Assembly: GCF_003026215.1 (NCBI RefSeq)
Contig: NZ_PYOC01000001.1
Coordinates: forward strand, 62,001 to 126,000
Length of the DNA stretch: 64,000 nucleotides
Direction: 5' to 3'
DNA from: Photobacterium indicum
Lineage (GTDB): Bacteria; Pseudomonadota; Gammaproteobacteria; Enterobacterales; Vibrionaceae
Shown here: positions 4,175 to 42,384 of the stretch, piece after piece
How positions within the stretch are numbered: position 1 is the stretch's first letter
How the letters are laid out: each line of letters starts with the position of its first letter
Notes under the pieces: generated by a model
Database searches by the model: none
The model's input: the letters and a program-made list of their open reading frames with translations, nothing else
What the model was told of the DNA's origin: nothing
Program-made: the position numbers and the translations under genes

Positions 4175-6157
4175 TTATTGTGCGCGATTAAATGTAACCA
4201 CTTCGTAGCTTAATGGCGTAACGGTTTGACGCTCTGCCGCAATGTAATCAATCATCGCTTGAGCATCGGTATTACACACGGTATTTGCCGCTTTACAATT
4301 AGGCGCTGCACCTTGGTAATTTACTTTGTATTTATTGCCTACTTTTGCGATATTTTTCACATCAAAACCCGTTAATTTACCATCAACGTAAGCTAAATCG
4401 ACACGGCCTGAGCTGTTCTTCTGTGCTTCATACAGTGGTGTCCAACCATCGTTACCCGTTGCGTTGTAATTATTCAGCGCAATGTTGTACACCTTGCTGT
4501 TTTCAATCTTCGTCCATACTGGGTTTGCTTCTGTACCTGTCATTATTTCAACAGCATCAAGTTTACCCGCTTCTTGCGCTTTCGTTTCAGTAAAGCTGTA
4601 ACGAATATGACCGCCATAAGGGAACTTACCCGCATGTGAACCTTCAGGTAAGGTCGCGGTTACTGTACTGTCGATTAATGCCTTAATCGCACTACCTTTA
4701 ACGGGCAGTACCGACATAAAGTTAGAAAATGGCAGCATTTCTAACGACACATTACCTTCACGGTATTCGCCCGCTTCAATGTTTGTTCTAATGCCACCAG
4801 CACCAATCAGTGCAAAGTCCACCTTCATGCCAGTCACTTTTTGTACTGCTGCTGTATTCGCCCAATAGTACTGACCTTCCGCAATTAAAGGTGCTACATC
4901 TGAACCGTGTTTGTCAGTACCACGATCGCCTGGACGACGCTCATGAATCAACTCAACAGGTACTTGTGCGATTGTCTTTCCGTATGCTTTATCAACCGCA
5001 GGCTTGTATTTAAAATTGATTAAATTACGCATGTTTGCATCTTCATCCGTAATTTCGATGTTATCTTCTTGCTCAATAAACTTAACAACACGTTGTGTGG
5101 CTGCTGCGTCAAACTTTTCACTCGTTTGGCGTGCTGGCTGAGTATAAAATTCATCATTGCTTAATAATGTGTTCTTACCATTACAGTTAACGACATCACC
5201 TTGCAGATTAAAGCCGACTTGTAGACGACCAATCGCTTGCGCATATTGACCCGCCTGAACAACACACGTTTGACCGACACCATTTGGGTTTTTCACCAAT
5301 TGTGCGTAAATACCGTCATTGTTCATGCCTAAATTGGTAAAATCACCCAGTAATGTATGCGAGTGGCCACCAACAATCAGATCGATACCATTCACTTTTG
5401 ACGCGATATCGACATCAATTGAATTACCAATATGTGTCACTGCAACGATATTATTAATACCTTTGGCTTTTAACATATCAACGGTAGTCTGCGCCGATTC
5501 AACCATATTAAAGAACTGTACATCACCCGTATTAGGTGCAAGGTTTGGCATATCATCGAGTGCGATACCGAATACCGCTACCAGATCTTTATCGGTTGGT
5601 AAATTATCGAGATCATCAACAACGGTTTTCTGGTTGCCATCAAATGCGTAAACCATAAATGGCCGTAGGTTAGTTTGATCTTTTAGATCGGCATCTTCGC
5701 TTGTATCAATGTTTGCCGCTAAAACAGGAAAATTAATACTTCCAATGAATTCATTCAATTTCTTGTTGTTCAAATCAAATTCATGGTTACCCAATGCCAT
5801 TGCATCAATGCCCATTTTACTTAGCAATTCAGCATTCATCGCGCCTTGGTTTAGCTTAAAGTAAGCGCTGCCCTGCCACGCATCACCACCATGTAAGAAC
5901 AAAAAGCTGTCATTTTTTTGCTTCGCATCTTGCTGGTATTCATCAGCCATCGTGAGTAAGCGCGGGTATCCACCGAACTCGTTATAAACTTTATCGCCGT
6001 TCGCTTCAAAACTCGATTTAACAGGATCAAAGTTAGAGTGAGTATCGTTAATATGTGCCACTGTTAAATTAAATACAGCGTCAGGTTGAGAACTTTGTGA
6101 GCAGCCAGCAAGAATCAAGGCAACAGATAATGCTGTAAGTGGCTTGAAAAACGTCAT
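4175..6157 (-). CDS. Surface 5'-nucleotidase / UDP-sugar hydrolase lipoprotein
   Basis: Secreted enzyme that dephosphorylates nucleotides so nucleosides can be taken up. A lipoprotein signal ends in LAGC (Cys19). The N-terminal metallophosphatase domain shows HINDTHSNFDP (about 35-45), GGDAWQGSAYF, ALGNHEFD and GGHSHTLLGDF, the two-metal binding set. The C-terminal substrate domain shows GAGGIRTNIEAGEYREGN and LPFSNFMSVL, and near the end NYNATGNDGW. Length 660 residues is within the range for such nucleotidases, slightly long. The ATG at 6157 is preceded by GGAAAG. A strong PurR-type box lies about 100 bases upstream, fitting purine salvage control. Monocistronic, with its own terminator. 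Confidence 0.92.
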   Translation of the reverse strand: MTFFKPLTALSVALILAGCSQSSQPDAVFNLTVAHINDTHSNFDPVKSSFEANGDKVYNEFGGYPRLLTMADEYQQDAKQKNDSFLFLHGGDAWQGSAYFKLNQGAMNAELLSKMGIDAMALGNHEFDLNNKKLNEFIGSINFPVLAANIDTSEDADLKDQTNLRPFMVYAFDGNQKTVVDDLDNLPTDKDLVAVFGIALDDMPNLAPNTGDVQFFNMVESAQTTVDMLKAKGINNIVAVTHIGNSIDVDIASKVNGIDLIVGGHSHTLLGDFTNLGMNNDGIYAQLVKNPNGVGQTCVVQAGQYAQAIGRLQVGFNLQGDVVNCNGKNTLLSNDEFYTQPARQTSEKFDAAATQRVVKFIEQEDNIEITDEDANMRNLINFKYKPAVDKAYGKTIAQVPVELIHERRPGDRGTDKHGSDVAPLIAEGQYYWANTAAVQKVTGMKVDFALIGAGGIRTNIEAGEYREGNVSLEMLPFSNFMSVLPVKGSAIKALIDSTVTATLPEGSHAGKFPYGGHIRYSFTETKAQEAGKLDAVEIMTGTEANPVWTKIENSKVYNIALNNYNATGNDGWTPLYEAQKNSSGRVDLAYVDGKLTGFDVKNIAKVGNKYKVNYQGAAPNCKAANTVCNTDAQAMIDYIAAERQTVTPLSYEVVTFNRAQ

Positions 6158-11329: not shown

Positions 11330-12682
11330 TTAGTTGAGTGCTACAACGAGATCTTCCTCAACGGTACTTGAACAGGCTAATACATACCCTTGTGCAATTT
11401 CTTCTGCGGTAAGCGTTTCAGTACTGGTCGATTTTACTGAGCCTTTAGTGACTTTGCATTTACACGAGCCACAAACACCCGCACGACAAGCACCAATAAT
11501 AGGTACACCATTATTTTCTAATACTTCTAATAATGATGAGCCTTGTGTTACCTCTTTCTCTACAGAAAAGTCAGGAACGTGCAGCATAACACTGGTTGTT
11601 GCAGCGCCTGATGAGATCAGATCTTGTTGCTCATTATTTGCAGCAGGAGTAAAGCTTTCTTGGAAGAAGTTAGCCATATCGAAATCACTTTCTTGGGCAA
11701 TATTCTCTACCGCTTTCATAAAACCAACAGGACCGCACAGGAAGATAGTGCGTTCTTTGAGGTCGGGATATAGCTGTTGAATAACGTCTGAACTCACCAT
11801 GCCAGTTTGATGTGACAAAGCACTGCTACCCGCCTTTTTATTAGCACTGTCATCGGCACTAAAACTGGCAAAGCCTTCACTATTTTCTAACAGCAACTGC
11901 ACGTTAAAGTTGCGATATTGAGCAAGTAACGTCTTCATTTCATCATGGAAGATAACATTGTCTTTGTCTCGGGCACAATGTAAGAATTCAATATCAGTGT
12001 CGCTATCATGCGTTAACAATGTTTTGGCTATCGACATAACAGGGGTGATACCACAACCCGCACTGATGAGTAGTAGCTTAGGTTTGTGCTTGCAATCACT
12101 ACTATTGAATTGACCAGCGATGTTTAATGCTGACAAGCTATCGCCGATGTTTAGATTGTCGGCAAGCCAGTTAGACACTAAACCATCTGGTACGCGTTTA
12201 ATGGTTAAGCGTAATTGTTTTTGTTGCGGTACAGAACTAATTGAATAAGCACGATAATGTGTTTTGTTATCTATTTTGACGGCTAATGTCACGAACTGAC
12301 CAGGCTTAAAATCAAACAATGTTTCATCGGCGGCAGCAAAGGTAAAGCTCATCGAGTCATGTGTTTCTTCTTCACGTTTGACTAAGATTAACGCTGTTGT
12401 TGAAGGTGACCATGGCGCTGGTTTTTTAATAACATTAGCGGTTGGTTCGCCAAGAGAGAGTGCTGCCAACTTTGGTTTAGTAAATTGAGGCTTTGCAAAT
12501 GTTTTTGTGGTGTCTGATTTAGCGGTATTCTGTGAATCACCACCGAGTGAAAAGCTAAGCTTAGGTGTAGATAGCTTTGGTGATGACGGTTTTGTTGATT
12601 GACCAAGACCTGAACTATTTAGTTTAAGTGGCTTAAGAGCCGGTGCTGATAGTGTTGATGAAGGCGTTTTTGAAGAAGACAT
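11330..12682 (-). CDS. hcr: Hybrid-cluster protein reductase Hcr
   Basis: NADH oxidoreductase that reduces Hcp. After an unusual N-terminal extension of about 90 Ser/Pro/Thr/Lys-rich residues come an FAD domain (RAYSISSVP), an NAD-binding domain (LISAGCGITPVMSIAKTLL and FLCGPVGFMKAVE) and a C-terminal 2Fe-2S ferredoxin domain (CRAGVCGSCKCKV then LACSS). About 450 residues against roughly 320 in E. coli Hcr; the excess is the N-terminal extension and a Ser/Lys-rich insert in the NAD domain. I use the ATG at 12682; a GTG at 12691 is in frame. It lies 192 bases after hcp, with tandem repeats between them. Confidence 0.9.
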   Translation of the reverse strand: MSSSKTPSSTLSAPALKPLKLNSSGLGQSTKPSSPKLSTPKLSFSLGGDSQNTAKSDTTKTFAKPQFTKPKLAALSLGEPTANVIKKPAPWSPSTTALILVKREEETHDSMSFTFAAADETLFDFKPGQFVTLAVKIDNKTHYRAYSISSVPQQKQLRLTIKRVPDGLVSNWLADNLNIGDSLSALNIAGQFNSSDCKHKPKLLLISAGCGITPVMSIAKTLLTHDSDTDIEFLHCARDKDNVIFHDEMKTLLAQYRNFNVQLLLENSEGFASFSADDSANKKAGSSALSHQTGMVSSDVIQQLYPDLKERTIFLCGPVGFMKAVENIAQESDFDMANFFQESFTPAANNEQQDLISSGAATTSVMLHVPDFSVEKEVTQGSSLLEVLENNGVPIIGACRAGVCGSCKCKVTKGSVKSTSTETLTAEEIAQGYVLACSSTVEEDLVVALN

Positions 12683-31761: not shown

Positions 31762-32484
31762 ATGTTGAAAGCCCTAATCGTAGAAGATGAATATTTAGCA
31801 AGGGAAGAGCTGACGTATTTAATTGAGCGCCATAGTAACATTCAGATTATCGCTACCTTTGAGGATGGTTTAGAAGCCTTTAAGTATCTCCAAACCCATA
31901 AGGTCGATATTGCTTTTTTAGACATTAATGTGCCGTCGATCGATGGCATGTTACTAGCACGTAACATTCATCAATTTTCTGAAAAACCGCATATTGTATT
32001 TACGACAGCCTATAAAGAATTTGCGGTCGATGCTTTTGAACTTGAAGCCTTTGATTACATACTAAAGCCACTGAACGAAAAACGTATCATCGGGTTATTA
32101 GCCAAACTAGAAGCAACCCATCAATGCCAAGTCGCCCCACCCGAAAAAGTCAGGGCTAAAACGATTAACTTGGTTAAAGACAACCGCATTTTTGTTACCG
32201 CCGTTGACGATATTTATTATGCTGTGGCTAATGAGAAAGTAACCAATGTATTTACCAAAGAAGGTGCTTTTATTGTCCCTTTCACTATGAGTGAATTAAT
32301 CAATCGCTTACCTGAAAAAAGTTTTTTCCGCACCCATCGTTCTTACTGTGTGAACATAGAAAAAATTCAAGAAATCATTCCTTGGATAAACTGTACCTAC
32401 CAACTTAAAGTACACGGTATCGGCAGTGAAATACCAGTGAGTCGTAGCAATATAAAAGCATTTCGTGAATTAATGAAATTGTAA
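31762..32484 (+). CDS. ypdB: LytTR-family response regulator YpdB
   Basis: Regulator of 240 residues: receiver domain with Asp54 (IAFLDINVPSIDG) and the KP pair (YILKPLNEKR), then a C-terminal LytTR DNA-binding domain (about 135-240; FFRTHRSYCVNIEKIQEI). Partner of the kinase upstream. In E. coli, YpdB activates yhjX through two direct GGCATTTCAT repeats 11 bases apart; the next gene here has that arrangement upstream. Confidence 0.93.
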   Translation: MLKALIVEDEYLAREELTYLIERHSNIQIIATFEDGLEAFKYLQTHKVDIAFLDINVPSIDGMLLARNIHQFSEKPHIVFTTAYKEFAVDAFELEAFDYILKPLNEKRIIGLLAKLEATHQCQVAPPEKVRAKTINLVKDNRIFVTAVDDIYYAVANEKVTNVFTKEGAFIVPFTMSELINRLPEKSFFRTHRSYCVNIEKIQEIIPWINCTYQLKVHGIGSEIPVSRSNIKAFRELMKL

Positions 32485-32499
32485 TTCATGCCGCTATAT

Positions 32500-32530
32500 T
32501 GCACTTCATTCCGCACTTATTGCATTTCAT
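32500..32530 (+). promoter_or_regulatory. YpdB direct-repeat operator of the MFS gene
   Basis: TGCACTTCAT (32500-32509) and TGCATTTCAT (32521-32530) are separated by exactly 11 bases and each match the E. coli YpdB motif GGCATTTCAT at 8 or 9 of 10 positions. They lie 114-144 bases before the ATG of the YhjX-like gene, starting 15 bases after the ypdB stop. Confidence 0.8.
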
Positions 32531-32643
32531 TTTTTATTCATTTCTCCCTATTGTCATCTCCAACGTAGACCGTATTTTAGTAGCTTAACAAGGTGACAAA
32601 CACTGTCGCCTTCATGCTTTTAAATTCGTTGGAGATTAACGTT

Positions 32644-33858
32644 ATGGCGACTCAAATATCAAACCGAGATCGACTCTTTACGTTGTTTGGCACTATCATC
32701 ACCCAATTTGCTTTAGGGTCGGTGTATACGTGGAGTCTATTTAACTCTCAGCTGGCAGACAAGCTATCAGAGCCCGTTAGCCGTGTAGCTTTTTCTTTTG
32801 GTATTTTAAGCTTAGCGTTAGCCGTTGCATCATCGTTGTCTGGCAAACTGCAAGAACGCTTTGGTGTACGTAAAGTCACTATTTGCTCTGGACTATTATT
32901 AGGTGCAAGCTTATTGCTGACAGCCCATGCATCTAACCTGATTTTACTGTATGTCTTCGCGGGCTTGTTAGTGGGCTTTGCCGACGGTACCGGTTACCTG
33001 ATGACCTTATCTAACTGCGTGAAGCTCTTTCCCGAGCGTAAAGGTTTGATCTCTGCGTGTGCAATTGGCGCGTATGGTTTAGGTAGCCTTGGGTTTAAAT
33101 ACATCAACATGTACTTCCTAACAAACACTGGATTGGAAAACACGTTCAGCACTTGGGGAGTTATAGCCATGGTCATGGTTATCCTTGGCGGTCTAATGAT
33201 GAAAGATGCCCCTAAACAAGAACAACAAAATACAGCAGAAACGCCAGTTCGTGATTACACCCTGGCAGAGGCAGTAAAATGCTCACAGTTTTGGATGCTA
33301 GCATTGGTCTTTCTAACTGTGTGCATGAGTGGTCTGTACGTTATTGGTGTCGCAAAAGATATTGGTGAAAGCTATGTGCACCTTCCTATGGCAATTGCAG
33401 CAACCTCAGTCGCTATCATTGCCGTAGCAAACCTAAGTGGTCGTTTAGTGCTTGGGGTGCTTTCAGATAGCATTAGCCGTATTAAAGTCATCGCTATTGC
33501 ACTCTTCATTTGCTTAATCGGTGTGTGTGCGCTACTTTTTGCGCACCAAAGTACAGTTAGTTTCTATTTTGCTGTCGCATGTATTGCATTTAGTTTTGGC
33601 GGCACAATTACTGTATTCCCATCATTGATCAGTGATTTCTTCGGCTTAAACAACCTAACAAAAAACTACGGCTTAATTTACCTTGGCTTTGGTATCGGCA
33701 GTATTATTGGTTCTATTGTCGCATCGCTCTTCGGTGGGTTCGCCGCAACCTTCTACCTTATGTTAGGGCTATTGGTGGTCTCGCTCATCATTGCGCTCAC
33801 TATCAAGCTTCCTGGTTCGCAGCAAGATAACCTTCCTGCCCAGCCAATCATGGCTTAG
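32644..33858 (+). CDS. YhjX-like MFS transporter (OFA family)
   Basis: Twelve-segment major facilitator of about 404 residues, of the oxalate/formate antiporter-like branch (TQFALGSVYTWSLFNSQLADKL, LYVFAGLLVGFADGTGYL, VFPSLISDFFGLNNLTKNYGLIY). E. coli YhjX belongs here and is induced by YpdAB when pyruvate is outside. Start ATG at 32644 is set by TTGGAGATTAACGTT; the frame is open upstream to 32593 but crosses the promoter. Directly downstream of ypdB with an apparent YpdB operator. A role in pyruvate movement is inferred from the family. Confidence 0.9.
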   Translation: MATQISNRDRLFTLFGTIITQFALGSVYTWSLFNSQLADKLSEPVSRVAFSFGILSLALAVASSLSGKLQERFGVRKVTICSGLLLGASLLLTAHASNLILLYVFAGLLVGFADGTGYLMTLSNCVKLFPERKGLISACAIGAYGLGSLGFKYINMYFLTNTGLENTFSTWGVIAMVMVILGGLMMKDAPKQEQQNTAETPVRDYTLAEAVKCSQFWMLALVFLTVCMSGLYVIGVAKDIGESYVHLPMAIAATSVAIIAVANLSGRLVLGVLSDSISRIKVIAIALFICLIGVCALLFAHQSTVSFYFAVACIAFSFGGTITVFPSLISDFFGLNNLTKNYGLIYLGFGIGSIIGSIVASLFGGFAATFYLMLGLLVVSLIIALTIKLPGSQQDNLPAQPIMA

Positions 33859-33876
33859 CCATTCACAGTAAGAAAA

Positions 33877-33911
33877 CAAAAAGAGAGAGCCAATTGCTCT
33901 CTCTTTTTTTT
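33877..33911. terminator. Strong bidirectional terminator
   Basis: GAGAGAGC (33883-33890) pairs with GCTCTCTC (33896-33903), flanked by an A-run (33877-33882) and eight T (33904-33911). It ends the MFS gene and the convergent aguA. Confidence 0.92.
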
Positions 33912-33947
33912 CCACCCTATCTTCTCAATGACGAATAGACTACTTCA

Positions 33948-35039
33948 TTAAACCTTAGGAATTTGTTGGGTAATACAGTGAATATTGCCGCCACCCAATA
34001 ATATTTCACGCGCATTCACCCCCGTTACTTCATAGTTTGGATATAAATCAGCTAACAACAGCGCGACGTCTTTATCGTGTTTCTCATCCAGCAACGGATA
34101 AATAACATGATTATTTGAAATCAGGTAGTTGGCGTAAGATCCTGCTAAACGCTCGCCCGGTACTCGCTCCATCCCTTCTGATACATCGACACCATTCGCT
34201 TCATCTTCTGAAATATACAGTGGGCCCGGCATCGGCAGTTTATGGATTTTAATCTGGCGACCTTTGGCATCAGTCTCGGTTAATAATACGTCCATCGCTT
34301 TTCGTGAAATAAGATACTGAGGATCTGTTTCATCATCACACCATGTCAGTGCAATTTCACCTGGGCGTACAACGTGAATCAAGTTATCAACGTGTCCGTT
34401 AGTCTCATCGTTATACAAACCTTGAGGGATCCATATTACCTTTTCAATAGAGAGATTTTCTTTCAGTACATCTTCAATCTCTTCACGAGTTAGATCAGGA
34501 TTACGGCTTGGGTGAAGCAAGCATTCTTCAGTGGTGTATAACGTTCCTTCACCATCCACATGAATAGAGCCACCTTCTAGTACGATAGGGGCACGATAGC
34601 TATCATCGCCTAACGTTTCACACACTTTTCGTGCGACAGCGTCGTCTTTATCCCATGGGAAATAGAGCCCATCAACCAATCCGCCCCACGCATTAAAGTG
34701 CCAATCAACACCGCGTCGTTCACCATGATCATTCACCACATACGAAGGGCCGATATCACGCATCCAAGAATCATCGGTACTCATTTCTAGTACCTGAATA
34801 TAACTCGGTAATACTACGCGGGCATTTTCAAACTGCTCGGCACTCACCACCATAGTAACCGGTGTTGTTTTCGCTATGGCTTTGGCGACTTCTACAAATG
34901 TTGCTTGTGCTGGTTTTGCGCCATAACGCCAATTATCGGTACGCTCTGGCCATGCCATCCATATAGCAGATTGAGGTTCGTGCTCTGCTGGCATTCTAAA
35001 TCCATCTTGCTTTGGGTTTGTGCTTAATTGTTTAGTCAT
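33948..35039 (-). CDS. aguA: Agmatine deiminase AguA
   Basis: Cytosolic hydrolase converting agmatine to N-carbamoylputrescine and ammonia. About 363 residues of the PPAD family: MPAEHEPQSAIWMAWPER at the start, ARDIGP-type MRDIGPSYVV, LEGGSIHVDGEGTL, NDETNGHVDN (His/Asp) and the catalytic Cys in GGGNIHCITQQ near the end. The ATG at 35039 is preceded by AAGGTGA; a GTG 9 bases upstream is in frame. Downstream of the antiporter gene, 33 bases away, in one minus-strand operon. Confidence 0.95.
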   Translation of the reverse strand: MTKQLSTNPKQDGFRMPAEHEPQSAIWMAWPERTDNWRYGAKPAQATFVEVAKAIAKTTPVTMVVSAEQFENARVVLPSYIQVLEMSTDDSWMRDIGPSYVVNDHGERRGVDWHFNAWGGLVDGLYFPWDKDDAVARKVCETLGDDSYRAPIVLEGGSIHVDGEGTLYTTEECLLHPSRNPDLTREEIEDVLKENLSIEKVIWIPQGLYNDETNGHVDNLIHVVRPGEIALTWCDDETDPQYLISRKAMDVLLTETDAKGRQIKIHKLPMPGPLYISEDEANGVDVSEGMERVPGERLAGSYANYLISNNHVIYPLLDEKHDKDVALLLADLYPNYEVTGVNAREILLGGGNIHCITQQIPKV

Positions 35040-35072
35040 GATATTCACCTTTATAATTTATATATACCATCG

Positions 35073-36491
35073 CTATGCAGTATGTTCTTGGTAATCTTGT
35101 GATTTATTGGCTTGTTTTTTCTTCGCTATAGCCAGCTTCAATAAATATTCACCAATCGCAATAGTCAGCAACACACCAATTAATACAGGCGCGCTATAGG
35201 TCCAATTAACGGAGAGCGAAATCAAATCAGGGAAAATAAACAATACAACAGCCTGCGCAATAGTAAGGAAGCACACAGTGCTTAATAACCACTGCATCCC
35301 CATACCACCAGGTACACGGAAAGGACGCTCAAATTGACTATCACTAATACGTAACTTCAAATACGACGGGAACATGAATAAATAAGGTAAAAGGAAAATA
35401 CAGCTTGAGAATGCAAACACTGACCAGAATAATTCATCACTGCTTTGGGCAAAGATGGCATACGCTAAGATAACTGCAGTCGAGAGTGCACCAGTAATAT
35501 TATTAGCACCGATAGGGGTATCATGCTTTTCAGACATCTTACCTACGACATCAGGCAGTTCGCCTTCACTTGCGGCTTCTGCTGCTGCACGGCTTGCGCC
35601 CATTGTCCATGTCACCATGTTACCAATGAAGGTCAGCAGTGCCATTGTGCCGATAATGTAGACCATCATCTGACCAAAATCACCGTCACCAAACAGTTTA
35701 CGTAACGTATCGATAATACCAGCAACTAAACCAATATCTTGAACAGGTAATGCCATCAAAATACCAACAGTACCAAACACATAAAGAAAGGCTGTAATTA
35801 TGGCCGCGAGGAAAATGGCTTTGGGCATATCGCGCACATCTTTCATTTCTTTGGTCATGGTTGCGACAAGCTCGAAGCCCATCAAATTAAACACCAACGC
35901 AGGCAGAAAGGCGACCCCAGTATCTAAGCTTGGCATCATGGCGGAAAAGCTAAATTCATTTGCAACACCATGTTTAGCGGCGTAGATAAAGCCACCGAAA
36001 CCCAATACAGAAATAACCGCGATTTTCAGTATTGCACCAATATTTGTAACCCATACACCCACATCGACCGATACATTACAAATCCAGATCGTTAACCATG
36101 TTAGTACAATACAAATAACGACTTGCCAGAATAAAGATAAGCCAGGGAAAAATAATTCAGAAAACATACCCGCAAACATAATATAAACAGCAGGCATCCA
36201 TAACCCGACATTTATCCAGTAAAACCATGTTGTTCTTACTGCCCATTTATAACCAAAGGCTTTTTTAACCCAATCATAAATTCCCCCTTCACCGGGGTAG
36301 GTTGTACTCAATTCAGAAGTAATTAATCCATAAGGAATAACAAAAACAACCAGTGTTAAAATCCACCAGCCAATAGAGCTCACCCCTATCGATGCTGAAG
36401 CCGTTAATGTATCGACAACAATAACGGCGCATAAACTAAAGAGAGCCAGACTTGTGACCCCCATCTTTCCTGTCGATGCTTGCGTGTCCAT
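35073..36491 (-). CDS. APC-family antiporter, probably agmatine/putrescine (AguD-like)
   Basis: Inner-membrane amino-acid/polyamine antiporter of 472 residues with twelve hydrophobic segments and the APC start ALFSLCAVIVVDTLTASASIG. GEGGIYDWVKKAFG and GFELVATMTKEMKD are family signatures (basic amino-acid/polyamine exchange). Transcribed into aguA, so agmatine in, putrescine out is the likely exchange. Its promoter shares the region of the FNR-type box on the other strand. Confidence 0.9.
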   Translation of the reverse strand: MDTQASTGKMGVTSLALFSLCAVIVVDTLTASASIGVSSIGWWILTLVVFVIPYGLITSELSTTYPGEGGIYDWVKKAFGYKWAVRTTWFYWINVGLWMPAVYIMFAGMFSELFFPGLSLFWQVVICIVLTWLTIWICNVSVDVGVWVTNIGAILKIAVISVLGFGGFIYAAKHGVANEFSFSAMMPSLDTGVAFLPALVFNLMGFELVATMTKEMKDVRDMPKAIFLAAIITAFLYVFGTVGILMALPVQDIGLVAGIIDTLRKLFGDGDFGQMMVYIIGTMALLTFIGNMVTWTMGASRAAAEAASEGELPDVVGKMSEKHDTPIGANNITGALSTAVILAYAIFAQSSDELFWSVFAFSSCIFLLPYLFMFPSYLKLRISDSQFERPFRVPGGMGMQWLLSTVCFLTIAQAVVLFIFPDLISLSVNWTYSAPVLIGVLLTIAIGEYLLKLAIAKKKQANKSQDYQEHTA

Positions 36492-36780
36492 AATCCATCT
36501 CCATGGTTATTCAAACGTATAATATTTATTTTTATTACTAAGACTTCTCACGTGTTGGTTATTATCTAAACAGACCACGCAGCATTGTTTCGTTATTAGA
36601 ATCACTTATCGACGAGTTCACCTTTAATGATGATAAAGGCGTGACCTGAAATTCAGATATAGCTACTCAATCCCTCTTATTCGATAAAATTGATTCTGAT
36701 CAAGTGAATAAGATGCCATTAAGGGATACTTTTCATGCCAACCAGTATTGTTAGATAAATCATTAAACAGGGAGAGTGGC
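36492..36780. other. Divergent promoter region of the agmatine genes
   Basis: Lies between the minus-strand aguD-like/aguA pair and the plus-strand carbamate kinase remnant and TetR gene. Contains the FNR-type site annotated at 36690-36703. No coding region supported; a minus-strand frame at 36663-36881 is antisense to the remnant. Confidence 0.5.
36690..36730 (+). promoter_or_regulatory. FNR-type class II promoter
   Basis: TTGATTCTGATCAA (36690-36703) is a perfect TTGAT-N4-ATCAA FNR box. A -10-like GATACT (36725-36730) places the transcription start near 36737, putting the box centre about 40.5 bases upstream, the class II activator position. It points to the carbamate kinase remnant and the TetR gene. 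Confidence 0.75.
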
Positions 36781-36840
36781 ATGAAAAATAACAAACCAAT
36801 CATTGTTGTTGCTGTAGGTGGAAATGCTTTATTGCAATAA
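36781..36840 (+). pseudogene. Carbamate kinase remnant (first 19 codons)
   Basis: The frame MKNNKPIIVVAVGGNALLQ then stop is the N-terminal start of carbamate kinase (family pattern KPIVVAxGGNALLQRGE), with an intact ribosome site, GGGAGAG, 4 bases before the ATG. After the premature stop none of the three frames continues the family sequence; 59 bases later the TetR gene begins. The rest of the gene appears deleted. The enzyme would have recovered ATP from the carbamoyl phosphate made by putrescine carbamoyltransferase. Confidence 0.8.
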
Positions 36841-36899
36841 TATAAGAATAATAGTGGCTCAAATAATCTCGATATGTACACAAAAAATAAGAGGGCGAG

Positions 36900-37523
36900 A
36901 TGAAAAAGGAATCAACAGATCAAAGGCTTAAAAGGATTCATAAAGCTGTCACTCATCTCGTCGCTCATCGTGACGTCAATTCAATCTCTATTTATGATGT
37001 CGCCAAAGAAGCCGCGATTGCAGCATCTACCGTTTACCATCATTACCCTAATATTGAAGCGTTAATATACGAATTGATGGAAGACATTTTCGTTGATTTC
37101 ACAAACGTCTTACAAGACTCTATCATCGCTGAAAGAATCCATCATTGGAGTGACATCAACCGGATGATTGAACAAGGGTTTGTCACTTACTACAGTAACA
37201 ACCCACTTGTTCAGCGCATTTTACTTGGGCAACACATATACGCTTCTATCCGCCATGCTGATGCACAAAATGACCTATTACTGGCCGAACATGTCGAAGC
37301 AATTTATCGTCAATACTTCGTATTGCCAGAGCTACCTACCAATGTGAATATTTTTGCCATAGCTTTGCAAGTTGCCGATAAAGTTTACTCAATGAACTAC
37401 CGAGAAAATGGCAGTATTCCACCAGAAATGGCACGTGAAGCTATCACGTTAACAGAAGCTTACTTAGGCACTTACCTACCTAAGAATTTACCAAGAAAGC
37501 CAATAGAAGTAATCACACACTAA
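36900..37523 (+). CDS. TetR-family regulator of the agmatine genes
   Basis: Regulator of 207 residues with an N-terminal helix-turn-helix (SISIYDVAKEAAIAASTVYHHYPNIEALI, about residues 28-56) and a C-terminal ligand domain with no recognised signature. AGAGGGCGAG precedes the ATG. It stands between the divergent antiporter/aguA operon and ptcA, so control of agmatine use is the best inference (agmatine-responsive regulators of this kind are known elsewhere). Ends with a strong terminator. Confidence 0.85.
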   Translation: MKKESTDQRLKRIHKAVTHLVAHRDVNSISIYDVAKEAAIAASTVYHHYPNIEALIYELMEDIFVDFTNVLQDSIIAERIHHWSDINRMIEQGFVTYYSNNPLVQRILLGQHIYASIRHADAQNDLLLAEHVEAIYRQYFVLPELPTNVNIFAIALQVADKVYSMNYRENGSIPPEMAREAITLTEAYLGTYLPKNLPRKPIEVITH

Positions 37524-37541
37524 GCCATCTTTTAGCCTGAC

Positions 37542-37577
37542 AAAAAAACGTTTATAACTACGGTTATAAACGTTTTT
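37542..37577. terminator. Perfect 15-bp terminator after the TetR gene
   Basis: AAAAACGTTTATAAC (37544-37558) and GTTATAAACGTTTTT (37563-37577) flank TACG. T-runs in both directions. Confidence 0.9.
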
Positions 37578-37887
37578 CTGCTGCTTAGCATTTATTATCC
37601 ATAGCCATTAATAAAAATAGACCTTTTATAATTTAAGATATTTAGACAGCGCTATTTAAACATCAGAATCAATTATCGACTATTAATCGCCATGCAAATA
37701 ATTATTTGTGATTTATACCATGAACATTTTTCGTTTATTTGAAAACAAATCGATTAGTGATTCTAGTTTAAGTATTAATCACCGAACCAGCACATAATAA
37801 AAACATAAAGAATAGATAGAACATCTTATTACATGTCGTAACTTATTACACGTTTCGACAACAACCGTTATTTAGAAGGGAAAAATC
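37578..37887. other. Leader and promoter region of ptcA
   Basis: AT-rich, no gene and no FNR-type box found. It must hold the ptcA promoter. Confidence 0.4.
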
Positions 37888-38934
37888 ATGAAAACGCCAT
37901 CTTCAAGCGCTACTAATTTGAATAAAGAAGGTTTACGTCATTTCCTGAAAACTCAAGATTATTCTAAAAAAGAGTTAAACGATATTCTTGAACTAATGGC
38001 AATGCTAAAACAAGCACGCCATGACAATGCATTACCCCAGCTATTCAAAGGTAAATCTGTTGCTATGATTTTCGAGCAACCTTCAACTCGTACACGTGTC
38101 TCTTTTGAAACAGCCGCAACTATGCTTGGTGGCCATGCTTTATTCTTGTCACCAAAAGATATTCACCTTGGTGGTAAAGAGTCACTTGAAGACACAGCGC
38201 GAGTATTGTCTCGTATGGTTGATGTCATTATGGCGCGTGTTGATGATCACAGCACGGTTGCAGGCTTAGCTGAACAAGCAACTGTTCCCGTTATCAATGG
38301 TTTATGTGACTGGTTACACCCGACTCAAATTATGGCAGATTTATTTACCATGCTTGAGCACCTACCTGAAGGTAAAACGCTTAGTGATTTAACGGTTGCC
38401 TTTGTGGGTGATGCCACCAACGTTGCCTCTTCGCTGATGTTTGCATGTACTAAGTTTGGCATGACCTTCAAACATATCTGCCCTGAACGTTTTAAAGCAC
38501 CACAGAAGTGGGTCGATATTGCTTTAGACAACTGTGAAACATCTAACGGTAAGCTCGTTATTACCGATAATACCGACGAAGTTGCTGGCTGTGACATTAT
38601 TGTAGCCGATAGCTTCTACTGGTTTGGTCAGGAAGATGAAAAAGATATCCGTCTTTCAACGTTTATCCCTGATTACGTTGTAACTGAAACCATGATGGAA
38701 AAAGCAGGGCCAGATGCAATGTTCATGCACTGCTTACCAGCCAATGATCAACGCGAATGTACTCGAGAAGTGATGGAGTCACCACGATCTGTTATTTTTG
38801 ATGAAGCAGAAAACCGCCTAACAGCCCAAATGGCACTGCTAGTTTACTTCACTCACAATCATATTAAGCAACCAAGCCAAGAAACACTGGCCAAACACAA
38901 AATGAAAATTGAAAGTTTCTTAAAAACAATATAA
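37888..38934 (+). CDS. ptcA: Putrescine carbamoyltransferase
   Basis: Cytosolic enzyme that phosphorolyses N-carbamoylputrescine to putrescine and carbamoyl phosphate. 348 residues with the carbamoyl-phosphate loop STRTRVSFE (about 69), HPTQIMADL, and HCLPA. Segments such as DIHLGGKESLEDTARVLSRMVDVIMARVDDH and VINGLCDWLHPTQ resemble enterococcal putrescine carbamoyltransferase more than ornithine carbamoyltransferases, and the C-terminal extra helix (QETLAKHKMKIESFL) is a mark of that enzyme. AGAAGGGAAAAATC precedes the ATG. Completes the agmatine deiminase route with aguA; the kinase step is missing nearby. Confidence 0.88.
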   Translation: MKTPSSSATNLNKEGLRHFLKTQDYSKKELNDILELMAMLKQARHDNALPQLFKGKSVAMIFEQPSTRTRVSFETAATMLGGHALFLSPKDIHLGGKESLEDTARVLSRMVDVIMARVDDHSTVAGLAEQATVPVINGLCDWLHPTQIMADLFTMLEHLPEGKTLSDLTVAFVGDATNVASSLMFACTKFGMTFKHICPERFKAPQKWVDIALDNCETSNGKLVITDNTDEVAGCDIIVADSFYWFGQEDEKDIRLSTFIPDYVVTETMMEKAGPDAMFMHCLPANDQRECTREVMESPRSVIFDEAENRLTAQMALLVYFTHNHIKQPSQETLAKHKMKIESFLKTI

Positions 38935-38953
38935 ACACCACCTAAAACATAAG

Positions 38954-38993
38954 TAAAAAAAGAGCATGGAATCGTTATGATTACATGCTCTTT
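38954..38993. terminator. Bidirectional terminator between ptcA and the DUF3157 gene
   Basis: AAAGAGCATG (38959-38968) pairs with CATGCTCTTT (38984-38993), extended inside by AATC/GATT. A long A-run gives a strong U-tract for the minus-strand gene. Confidence 0.8.
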
Positions 38994-39047
38994 AGGGTTA
39001 CGTTACTTTCAAATATCTACATTTCGTATTTAAATTCTTACTTTTAA

Positions 39048-39692
39048 TTACCAATGCTCAACTTCAACAATTTCAGCACTGATAAAGTAAACCGAATTTT
39101 TAGGCACAGAAAAAGTAATAGGGTTTCCTTTTTGCTGGGTTTTAGGTCTAAAATACGTGTCAGGAAGACGTTTTATTGATGACCAAATTTTAGCTTCTTC
39201 ACTGCCTATTTGATTCCCATTTTCATCGTTCAAGGTAACCTTTACAATCACTGTAACGACCGATTGCAAACTCTGATTTGTCATCATTGTCGGAATAACA
39301 AGCACACCATCATCATACTCGGCAGCTGTAAGTAACACATCAATACCACTATTACTCAGTTGTTGAATGTTTTTACTTGCACCCAGCTCTATACGCGCGC
39401 CTTTAGGTGCCTGAGCAAGAGGAATCGCACTAACCACAGGAATAGCTGCAGCACTCTTCGTAATACTAGAGCTAGCAGGTGCTATTGGTACTGCGCTTGT
39501 TGTTTCGATTGGCGTCGATTTCACTTCTACAGGTAAAGCGGTGGTCTTTATTGCTTGGTATTCCCATGTGAAGTCATCATGTAATACAACTTGTCGACCA
39601 TCTTCTAACATCACCACTTTATCTGCGGCCCAAGCACTATTTGTTGCTGTTAGGGCTATCAATACCCCACACAGCTGGCTCATTATTCTCAT
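39048..39692 (-). CDS. Exported DUF3157-family protein
   Basis: Protein of 214 residues with signal peptide (MSQLCGVLIALTATNSAWA after three residues). The N-terminal mature part VVMLEDGRQVVLHDDFTWEY is the mark of the DUF3157 family, of unknown function, found in vibrios and relatives. A low-complexity Pro/Ser/Ala/Thr linker follows (about 50-95), then a beta-rich domain (VDVLLTAAEYDDGVLVIP-like). ATG at 39692 follows AAGGGA. Convergent with ptcA. Confidence 0.78.
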   Translation of the reverse strand: MRIMSQLCGVLIALTATNSAWAADKVVMLEDGRQVVLHDDFTWEYQAIKTTALPVEVKSTPIETTSAVPIAPASSSITKSAAAIPVVSAIPLAQAPKGARIELGASKNIQQLSNSGIDVLLTAAEYDDGVLVIPTMMTNQSLQSVVTVIVKVTLNDENGNQIGSEEAKIWSSIKRLPDTYFRPKTQQKGNPITFSVPKNSVYFISAEIVEVEHW

Positions 39693-39920
39693 GTTATATC
39701 CCTTACCAAAGCTTTATTTCTTATTCTTATAAGAATAGTAACAGGTTTACTGTCCAAATAATGTTGTATACATCCATCATAAATATATACCCAAGTTACA
39801 ACCTTATCGGTGATGCTGTTCTATCTATTTAAATACTCAATACTACGAGTGATTTCATTAGGGCAATCTGCACTGCCTGAATGAACTGCGAAACCCAAAG
39901 TACACTAACGTTACGACGGT

Positions 39921-40397
39921 TTACTGCTTTTGTAATATATAATTTTCAGCTAAATCGCCAGTGATTCGCTTCCCTTCACGGTCTAAACGAAACAAGCGCC
40001 TTTCTCCAACAAAGTACTGAATACTACTTCCATTATCGTTGAGCAACGTGACTGTATTACCAGCAGCATTCCATTCAAGTTGACCACTGCGCTCGACATC
40101 ACCACCTTCTTTTCCTTGGTAGGTTTCAGTTAGCATATAAGAGCCGTCTTGCCTAAGCATTAGCTGTGTTTCTATACCCGAGCAATCAGCACACGGTAAA
40201 ATGCCATTGTATGTACCATTCCAATCCAGTGCATTACGTGCGTTATGTGCATCTGCAATAACTTCTGCTTGATCTTGAATTGCAGCGACGATAGTAGATT
40301 CAGCCTGCTCAGGTTGCACTGCTTCTGTTGAAGCCTTTTGATCGCAGCCAACCAATAATAATCCCATAACTGTTACAACAAGTAGATTTCGTTTCAT
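39921..40397 (-). CDS. NlpE-like copper-resistance lipoprotein
   Basis: Outer-membrane lipoprotein of about 158 residues. The signal MKRNLLVVTVMGLLLVGC ends in a lipobox Cys; the mature domain WNGTYNGILPCADCSGIETQLML matches the NlpE N-terminal domain, with its CADC motif. NlpE reports surface stress to the Cpx system in E. coli. The ATG at 40397 follows AGGTG; the frame is open to 40436 but that start lacks a signal. Only the N-terminal NlpE domain is present. Confidence 0.83.
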   Translation of the reverse strand: MKRNLLVVTVMGLLLVGCDQKASTEAVQPEQAESTIVAAIQDQAEVIADAHNARNALDWNGTYNGILPCADCSGIETQLMLRQDGSYMLTETYQGKEGGDVERSGQLEWNAAGNTVTLLNDNGSSIQYFVGERRLFRLDREGKRITGDLAENYILQKQ

Positions 40398-40692
40398 CAG
40401 TACACCTATATACAACTGCCTATCGATAACTTTCAATTATAGCGATACATCTGTCTGCTAACGGTCAGTAAAGTGTTAACTGTTAGTCAGAATAAATATG
40501 CGGTATTTAGTGAGTATAATTCCTTGATTAAAAAAATATTAATACTGGTTTAATTAAACTCGAATAGACGCTGTGAAGGGAAAAGAGAATAGTAATTGCA
40601 AAACAACACGGCGACTTAATCCTATGTACATTCCCATAGAAAATACATTAAGCGCTTATAACTACATCACAGAGATACGATAAGGTAATACT
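40398..40692. other. Divergent region between the NlpE-like gene and the ornithine carbamoyltransferase
   Basis: No gene. I searched for ArgR boxes; only weak half-matches such as AGAATAAATATGC (40491-40503 area) are present. No convincing operator. Confidence 0.4.
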
Positions 40693-41694
40693 ATGTCTTT
40701 TAATCTTCGCAACCGTAACTTTCTAAAATTACTTGATTTCACAGGTAAAGAAATCGAACACCTCATAGCATTGGCGCAAGACTTAAAACATGCCAAGTAT
40801 GCGGGCACTGAACAACAGAAGCTGAAGGGTAAAAATATAGCTCTCATCTTTGAAAAAACCTCCACTCGTACCCGTTGTGCGTTTGAAGTAGCAGCCCATG
40901 ATCAAGGAGCACATGTCACTTACATTGGCGGTGGCTCGCAAATGGGTCATAAGGAAAGTACTAAAGATACTGCCCGTGTTTTAGGTCGTTTCTATGATGG
41001 CATTGAATATCGTGGTTTTGGGCAGGATGTCGTTGAGATTCTAGGAGAGCATGCCGGCGTGCCGGTTTGGAATGGTTTAACCGATGAATGGCACCCAACT
41101 CAAATCATCGCAGATTGGATGACAATGCTAGAGCACGGTAACGGCAAGCGCCTAAATCAAATGAAACTCGCCTATATGGGCGATGCAAAAAATAATATGG
41201 GTAACTCACTAATGGTTGGCGCGGCAAAAGTGGGAATGGAAATCCGTCTTGTTGGCCCTAAAGCCTACTGGCCAGATCCGACTCTTGTTGAGAAGTGCAA
41301 TGAGTTGTGCAAAATTTCAGGCGGTAAAATTGTCATTACCGATAATGTCCAAGAAGGTGTTGATAACGTAGACTTTATTTACGGTGATGTATGGGTTTCT
41401 ATGGGTGAGCCGGAAGAACTGTGGGAAACACGCATAAACGACCTAGCACCCTACCAAGTGAATATGTCAGTTATCACAGCAACGCAGAACCCTGCGGTTA
41501 AATACATGCACTGTTTACCTGCATTTCATAATGACGAAACACGAGTGGGTAAAAAGATAGAAGAAAAATTCAATATGAAAGGTCTTGAAGTAACAGAAGA
41601 TGTTTTTGAATCTTCTTACACTATTTGTTTCGATGAAGCAGAAAATAGAATGCACTCAATTAAAGCAATTATGGTTGCAACCTTAGGCGATTAA
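40693..41694 (+). CDS. argF: Ornithine carbamoyltransferase
   Basis: Cytosolic enzyme joining ornithine and carbamoyl phosphate to citrulline, or the reverse in arginine catabolism. 333 residues with the carbamoyl-phosphate loop [24 protein letters not shown], the ornithine-binding SMG motif ([12 protein letters not shown]) and HCLPAFH. AAGGTAATACT precedes the ATG. Could be the catabolic form (arcB); no other arginine gene adjoins to decide. The final 93 bases recur at 44541-44633. Confidence 0.93.
41602..41694 (+). repeat. 93-bp direct repeat, copy 1 (3' end of argF)
   Basis: Identical to 44541-44633 at 90 of 93 positions, same orientation, ending exactly at the TAA stop. Copy spacing is 2939 bases. 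Confidence 0.95.
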
Positions 41695-41734
41695 TAGTCA
41701 ATAATTCGCACCTAACTAAGAAATCCTATCTACC

Positions 41735-41760
41735 AAAGCCGTATTTTTACGGCTTTTTAT
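41735..41760 (+). terminator. Terminator of argF
   Basis: AAAGCCGTA (41735-41743) pairs with TACGGCTTT (41748-41756), loop TTTT, followed by T residues. About 40 bases after the stop. Confidence 0.85.
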
Positions 41761-42052
41761 CGATCTATGCTACCGATAGCCCTATGCATCATAGTGCGAT
41801 CCCTGTCTTTTGATCAGATCGTGATATCGAAACGAAGTTCAAGAAATCCCCAGTTTTTAAGCTAGGGATTTCCGTATAAGAGACAGGCCAATTGGCGACC
41901 TTTTCCGTATCTGGACGTTACAGGATCACGCTCGTTCTATTCCAATTTAACGTAAGAGACATTTCTATCTGGAAATAAGGCAGGGCACTTTAAAGTGGGA
42001 TAAACAGGATTTTTGAGGCTAGAGTCAAAAAAAACAAACAAAAATACACGTG

Positions 42053-42065
42053 CTGGTCTGACCAG
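42053..42065. promoter_or_regulatory. FadR/GntR-type operator overlapping a promoter
   Basis: CTGGTCTGACCAG is a perfect 13-bp palindrome matching the core of FadR operators (CTGGT-N3-ACCAG). The extended -10 TGCTATTAT (42066-42074) begins one base beyond it, so the operator would sit between -35 and -10, ideal for repression. Confidence 0.55.
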
Positions 42066-42079
42066 TGCTATTATCTGTA

Positions 42080-42137
42080 TTTACAGACGTGTAACTTTAT
42101 ATAGGCTCATTTCAATATTTTAATGAGCTTTTTTTTT
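42080..42137 (+). ncRNA. Candidate short transcript from promoter to terminator
   Basis: The extended -10 predicts a start near 42080; the terminator at 42105-42137 would end it after under 60 bases. No open frame lies between. It may be a small RNA or the leftover of an operon whose coding part was removed. Sequence evidence is limited to the promoter and terminator signals. Confidence 0.35.
42105..42137 (+). terminator. Rho-independent terminator of the mini unit
   Basis: GCTCATT (42105-42111) pairs with AATGAGC (42122-42128), followed directly by nine T (42129-42137). Confidence 0.85.
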
Positions 42138-42384
42138 GCTTATTACCTCGAGCGTTATGTTCAAAATCTTTACCAATATCCGCCCCTGTCTGATATGGCT
42201 CTGTCACAAATAGGGCTCCATTAGCATTCATTGATATGTGTAATGCGCCTTATGTTGTCTTTTTCAGAAATCATGCCTTCTTCAAACGGATGTTTTCACC
42301 GCTGATGCCTTCTTCACCGCATTGATAAAAATTGGTTCTATGATTAATAAGGCTGGTGATGAATACATTTGCTAAGGAGATGTC

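Follow-up and report, generated by a model that had tools for sequence, protein, structure and literature searches.

The window, by which we mean the whole 64-kb stretch of DNA analysed here, comes from a marine bacterium with a Photobacterium-like genome, near Photobacterium profundum, and it holds an agmatine cluster in which a frame of 19 codons stands between the antiporter and regulator genes. The features of the locus are listed below in window coordinates; L004, to which several of them refer, is the nearest relative locus, that of Photobacterium profundum ATCC BAA-1252.

33948-35039, reverse strand: agmatine deiminase gene aguA, intact (TIGR03380, 604.9 bits against a cut-off of 381.8)
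35073-36491, reverse strand: amino-acid/polyamine antiporter gene, called AguD (antiporter-family matches, all below curated cut-offs; the gene adjoins the cluster in relatives)
36598-36697: 100-bp module with three anchors, copy 1 (arm AGAATCACTTATCG, CGTGA at module positions 43-47, arm TGATTCT at the end)
36690-36703, forward strand: FNR-type box TTGATNNNNATCAA, an exact match and one of two exact ones in the 64-kb window, its centre 84 bp before the kinase start
36725-36730, forward strand: -10-like GATACT, 31 bp downstream of the FNR-type box, centre to centre
36770-36774, forward strand: GGGAG, Shine-Dalgarno-like, retained from the former kinase gene, with identical letters in L004
36781-36840, forward strand: kinase stump MKNNKPIIVVAVGGNALLQ, read directly, with ATG at 36781 and the stop codon TAA at 36838-36840, matching the N-terminus of the L004 kinase
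36837-36839: deletion junction, at which L004 5053-5939 (887 bp) is absent and 36838 is an extra T
36900-37523, forward strand: intact gene of a TetR-family regulator, preceded by a ribosome-site-like AGAGGG (36890-36895) of its own
37665-37764: 100-bp module, copy 2, between tetR and ptcA, in the same register (strict pattern in 16 of 24 loci)
37888-38934, forward strand: putrescine carbamoyltransferase gene ptcA, intact (TIGR04384, 520.5 bits against a cut-off of 500)

The aguA gene is the only agmatine deiminase match in the genome (E up to 1e-60). For AguD the best match is a GadC-type model, at 181.2 bits against a cut-off of 650; the position of the gene is conserved in relatives, and its role is presumed to lie in agmatine/putrescine exchange. 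Genes for the deiminase, the presumed antiporter and PtcA are common to the window and the AgDI clusters of Enterococcus faecalis and Streptococcus mutans (aguBDAC). From the AgDI set the agmatine deiminase and the putrescine carbamoyltransferase are found here and the in-cluster carbamate kinase is absent (deleted): it completes the set in most sister clusters, whereas 19 codons of it stand in the window. The window differs further from the Gram-positive AgDI systems in that its genes lie in two divergent groups and its regulator is of the TetR family, the AguR of those systems belonging to another. PTC-annotated clusters are described as essentially identical in composition in PMC3282769, which also lists a Photobacterium profundum PTC.

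On the right side of the cluster, homology to L004 ends at window position 38943, while that to L005 (P. frigidiphilum) runs on to 42143 and passes an ornithine carbamoyltransferase gene (window 40693-41694); this side (38944-42143) thus varies among close relatives. In another close relative (G068 C3:2109452-2110186) the agmatine deiminase match spans only positions 112-357 of 357, which suggests a truncated deiminase in a cluster that still holds its kinase.

Translated, the 19 codons agree with the L004 carbamate kinase (residues 1-19) at 18 of 19 positions (95%; tblastn, L019 row), and 56 of the 57 bases are equal, the sole difference being one that changes an amino acid (K3N). This match is far beyond chance, since both flanks can be aligned to L004 around a single break (window 31786-36837 with L004 1-5052, 97.2% and gap-free; window 36839-38943 with L004 5940-8043, 97.2% with one gap in 2105 positions). 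The frame contains the N-terminal GGNALL segment of carbamate kinase (TIGR00746, NCBIfam), and its 19 codons fall well short of the full length of that model, about 309 positions. The junction reads CAA-TAA in frame, so it was the cut that produced the stop codon; the junction can equally be read as a somewhat larger deletion at the shared CAA and a subsequent duplication of three bases. The preliminary description had the start of a carbamate kinase with its ribosome site and then a stop, and this is confirmed by the 18 shared residues and the retained GGGAG, as is the origin from a carbamate kinase by the intact genes at the same spot in relatives. It had placed the missing gene between 36840 and 36900; relatives do hold an intact gene here, but 36841-36899 is the old spacer before the TetR gene and the missing 887 bp belong at 36838.

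The full kinase gene is present in the close relatives L004, L005, L020, L021, and L022, which assigns the deletion to the window's own line, and the allele with this deletion was seen in a single genome among those examined. Taken together, these results make it very probable that one recent deletion, of about 887 bp, took away the rest of the agmatine-cluster carbamate kinase gene and left the 19-codon frame as its stump. With a start and ribosome site kept, the body gone and the neighbours intact, the locus resembles an ordinary deletion-scar pseudogene, from which it differs in nothing essential; related clusters also lack the same gene, with other remnants or none.

We give very little credence to the reading that assembly or sequencing created a false deletion and that the cell has an intact kinase gene here. 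The genome is a draft in 39 contigs, and the call rests on the assembly of the one genome that carries the allele. However, both contig ends are at least 27 kb distant from the junction (window C1:62001-126000), and the breakpoints share at most three bases, CAA. A comparison of the 120-bp sequences around them gives only one exact match of 7 bases or more, a 7-mer that does not lie at the breakpoints, so no repeat is present to mislead an assembler. Moreover, other species also lack the kinase at this position.

Searching the genome collection once with the TetR protein yielded 15 loci from named organisms (10 Photobacterium, 2 Vibrio, 1 Izhakiella, and 2 Psychromonas), of which 11 hold an intact carbamate kinase of about 303 residues between antiporter and TetR and four (L008, L010, L014, and L015) have none there. 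A TetR tree of 33 rows was drawn from the window and 45 loci (L004-L048), with 13 left out that are apparently second copies (L019, L020, L022-L025, L028, L029, L031, and L034-L037); TetR matches with no assigned locus lay outside its scope. The kinase is absent beside TetR in 10 of the 33 rows, namely the window and nine others, and the tree needs at least seven changes of kinase state, four of them forced by well-supported branches, or five when L042-L044 are removed. Shuffled labels gave a mean of 8.8 changes, with 51 to 58 of 500 shufflings as low as seven; several branches are long and the deep branching order is uncertain, and parsimony does not distinguish a gain from a loss, such that a reading as independent losses assumes that the kinase was present first.

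What remains at the spot differs between lineages. In L010 (Photobacterium lipolyticum; 5428-6000), where the breakpoint differs from that of the window, there are only kinase tail fragments ahead of tetR, read by eye as FIILTDSGSVCL and a terminal SGTHIRA followed by the stop, and in L027 essentially just the sequence past the kinase gene remains. On contig C23 of G058, apparently the same genome as L010, a kinase lies about 0.5 kb from a second ptcA. L042 and L043 (G161 and G160) carry two TetR paralogs about 8 kb apart, and the only kinase of these genomes (E up to 1e-60) is found about 7 kb off, some 100 bp from the second TetR gene; this arrangement is perhaps a merged double agmatine cluster.

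The preliminary description had proposed that the short frame survives as a leader for the TetR gene, keeping its translation coupled, and had named conservation of the frame in distant relatives as a sign of this. When a kinase-like start was sought on either strand in the nine other kinase-less regions, it was found in none (0/9), and the proposal finds no support in the spacing or the fold either. The stop lies 59 nt ahead of the TetR start (90 nt for the L004 kinase stop), a ribosome-site-like sequence of its own precedes TetR, the region is predicted to fold no more stably than shuffled sequences (z of +1.26 and +0.51), and the only change from L004 within the frame is one that alters the peptide. 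The frame does have a ribosome-site-like sequence and would stand first on the presumed transcript, and a G-to-C change that is in the window but not in L004, L005, L021, or L022 lets an upstream AUCUCG pair, in the predicted fold, with the CGAGAU of the TetR start region; this six-base pairing is weak and could be chance. In having few codons behind a ribosome-site-like sequence and ahead of a gene, the window frame is like attenuators and leader peptides, but it lacks their conservation, overlap or close spacing, structured leader, and run of regulatory codons. With one genome as the basis, nothing supports selection on the 19-residue peptide. We rejected the leader peptide, on conservation, spacing, and fold, as a highly improbable explanation; most likely, the 19 codons are just a remnant of the kinase gene.

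The remaining genes give the impression of a cluster that is alive. Values of dN/dS between the window and L004 (AguA 0.041, AguD 0.022, TetR 0.084, and PtcA 0.015) look like those of constrained genes, and much of the difference behind them may predate the deletion.

A search of the rest of the genome for a full carbamate kinase, as the preliminary description had suggested, found three other full-length ones free of internal stops, at 386.4, 370.5, and 349.5 bits (TIGR00746), two of which exceed the cut-off of 358.25 bits while the third falls just below it. By gene names assigned from sequence, one lies between arcA and arcB, followed by pyrBI-like genes, in an arcABC-like operon, the second behind a hydantoinase/dihydropyrimidinase-like gene, and the third downstream of a purA-like gene. 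No kinase linked to agmatine genes was found elsewhere in the genome. All three are on contigs other than that of the sole agmatine deiminase gene, and a transfer of the kinase to a second agmatine locus was rejected on these grounds. The earlier statement that the route yields no ATP unless another kinase exists is weakened by these three genes, of which none is on the deiminase contig; one of them may serve the agmatine pathway here. In L109, no FNR-type box stands directly before arcA; its one exact box, at 11433, is about 620 bp from the start of an antiporter-like gene. Neither this nor gene linkage thus gives a sign that a substitute kinase is expressed together with the cluster.

Across the genus, a kinase (E up to 1e-60) is present in 35 of 52 genomes: in 19 of the 19 with a PtcA match (E up to 1e-125) and in 16 of the 33 others (Fisher p = 0.0001, uncorrected for kinship). 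Outside the genus, all 30 PtcA genomes have at least one kinase at the same thresholds. This brings the family total to 49 of 49 PtcA-match genomes with at least one carbamate kinase, although only 18 of the 49 matches pass the curated cut-off of the PtcA family (500 bits) and a part of them may represent related transcarbamylases. In the genomes whose cluster lacks the kinase, the number of kinases is three in our genome, five in G058, one in G073, two each in G074 and G166, four in G271, three in G287, and one each in G034, G160, and G161. No genome of this family was thus seen to have a PtcA match and lack a kinase altogether, but the kinase need not be in the cluster.

Seven of the 52 genus genomes have the deiminase but no kinase, and none of these is among the PtcA matches. 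The AguB route was checked with TIGR03381 on 13 genomes: the amidase AguB adjoins AguA in six of these seven, with none found in G084 (74% complete). No TIGR03381 match (E up to 1e-60) was found in the PtcA genomes G058, G067, G068, G073, and G074, or in our own genome, for which the AguB route was rejected.

From these observations we infer a course of events. The deletion would be tolerated because another kinase turns the carbamoyl phosphate released by PtcA into ATP, the likeliest substitute being ArcC of the arcABC-like operon; alternatively, the carbamoyl phosphate could go to other uses. Downstream, tetR would still be driven from the former kinase promoter and its FNR-type box, in which case transcription of the stump is probable and its translation possible, and the stump would need no function of its own.

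The box at 36690-36703 was named by the FNR-type consensus. It is exact in 23 of 27 antiporter-TetR regions, with one mismatch in the other four, and the -10-like GATACT is alike in many, not all, of the 23 regions compared. Together, the two are a possible promoter of the former kinase-tetR transcript. The box also overlaps the right arm of module copy 1, whose geometry consists of inverted arms 86 bp apart with YGTGA at positions 43-47 and which is kept where the kinase is gone. Among rows of the module the arms are 95% identical and most of the interior 38%, a comparison that is partly circular in that the rows were picked by a pattern fixing the arms. A box-anchored search of the whole preceding stretch repeats the arm test without such row choice, and it placed the best left arm 92 bp upstream in 26 of the 27 regions and 93 bp upstream in L015. 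This arm is letter-perfect in 22 of the 27, with one mismatch in L010 and L016, three in each of L042 and L043, and four in L044; the module centre reads CGTGA in 24, CTTGA in two, and TGTGA in L044.

When both arms were sought by pattern with any total length from 74 to 104 bp, every pair at a cluster locus measured 99 to 101 bp, and none was found by pattern in L045-L048, which belong to a more distant TetR branch. Outside the 16 of 24 loci with the strict pattern, copy 2 retains one recognisable arm in some loci and none in L017 and L018. In our own genome, exact seven-base arms 85-87 bp apart occur at only two places, the two module copies. Across 329 family genomes the arm pattern matched in 49, of which 23 have it in the agmatine cluster and 26 elsewhere by coordinates, and a reversed control pattern matched in 13 genomes of the 329; the matches outside clusters may be about what background gives. 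G186 (C4:30815-30914) and G295 (C1:622521-622620) carry diverged forms of the 100-bp module, the seven-base outer arms being unchanged, and there they adjoin the ptcA and kinase genes of another type of agmatine cluster.

A role of the module as RNA was rejected: consensus folding gave -1.6 and -3.5 kcal/mol on 23 and 14 rows, and no Rfam match exceeded its gathering score (best 26.1 bits against a gathering score of 48). The fixed spacing, the free interior, and the lack of a sign of RNA folding point to protein-bound DNA; a TetR protein on the arms with CRP or FNR at the centre is our guess. With somewhat less than even confidence, we offer a wider reading in which the cluster loses its kinase time and again and relies on one in common with arginine breakdown, selection guarding instead a rigid scaffold of two modules flanking tetR, with a CRP-like YGTGA near the dyad. 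On this scaffold the TetR regulator and CRP or FNR may build a bent or looped complex that controls antiporter, tetR, and ptcA jointly, and the stump would simply mark where its first transcript begins. The titles and abstract beginnings surveyed in the literature showed nothing on the loss of the agmatine-cluster kinase or on the 100-bp module.

The 19-codon frame is a real deletion scar in a living agmatine cluster, ordinary as an object and mildly interesting because several lineages lack this gene. It provides an exact and recent case in which the cluster of a pathway has dropped that pathway's ATP-yielding enzyme, the same gene being missing at this spot in several lineages while each examined genome keeps another carbamate kinase, and it raises the testable question of whether the kinases of separate fermentation pathways are interchangeable in the cell. 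The conserved 100-bp module is the most promising lead to come from this locus and offers a concrete target for studying the regulation of agmatine use in these bacteria.
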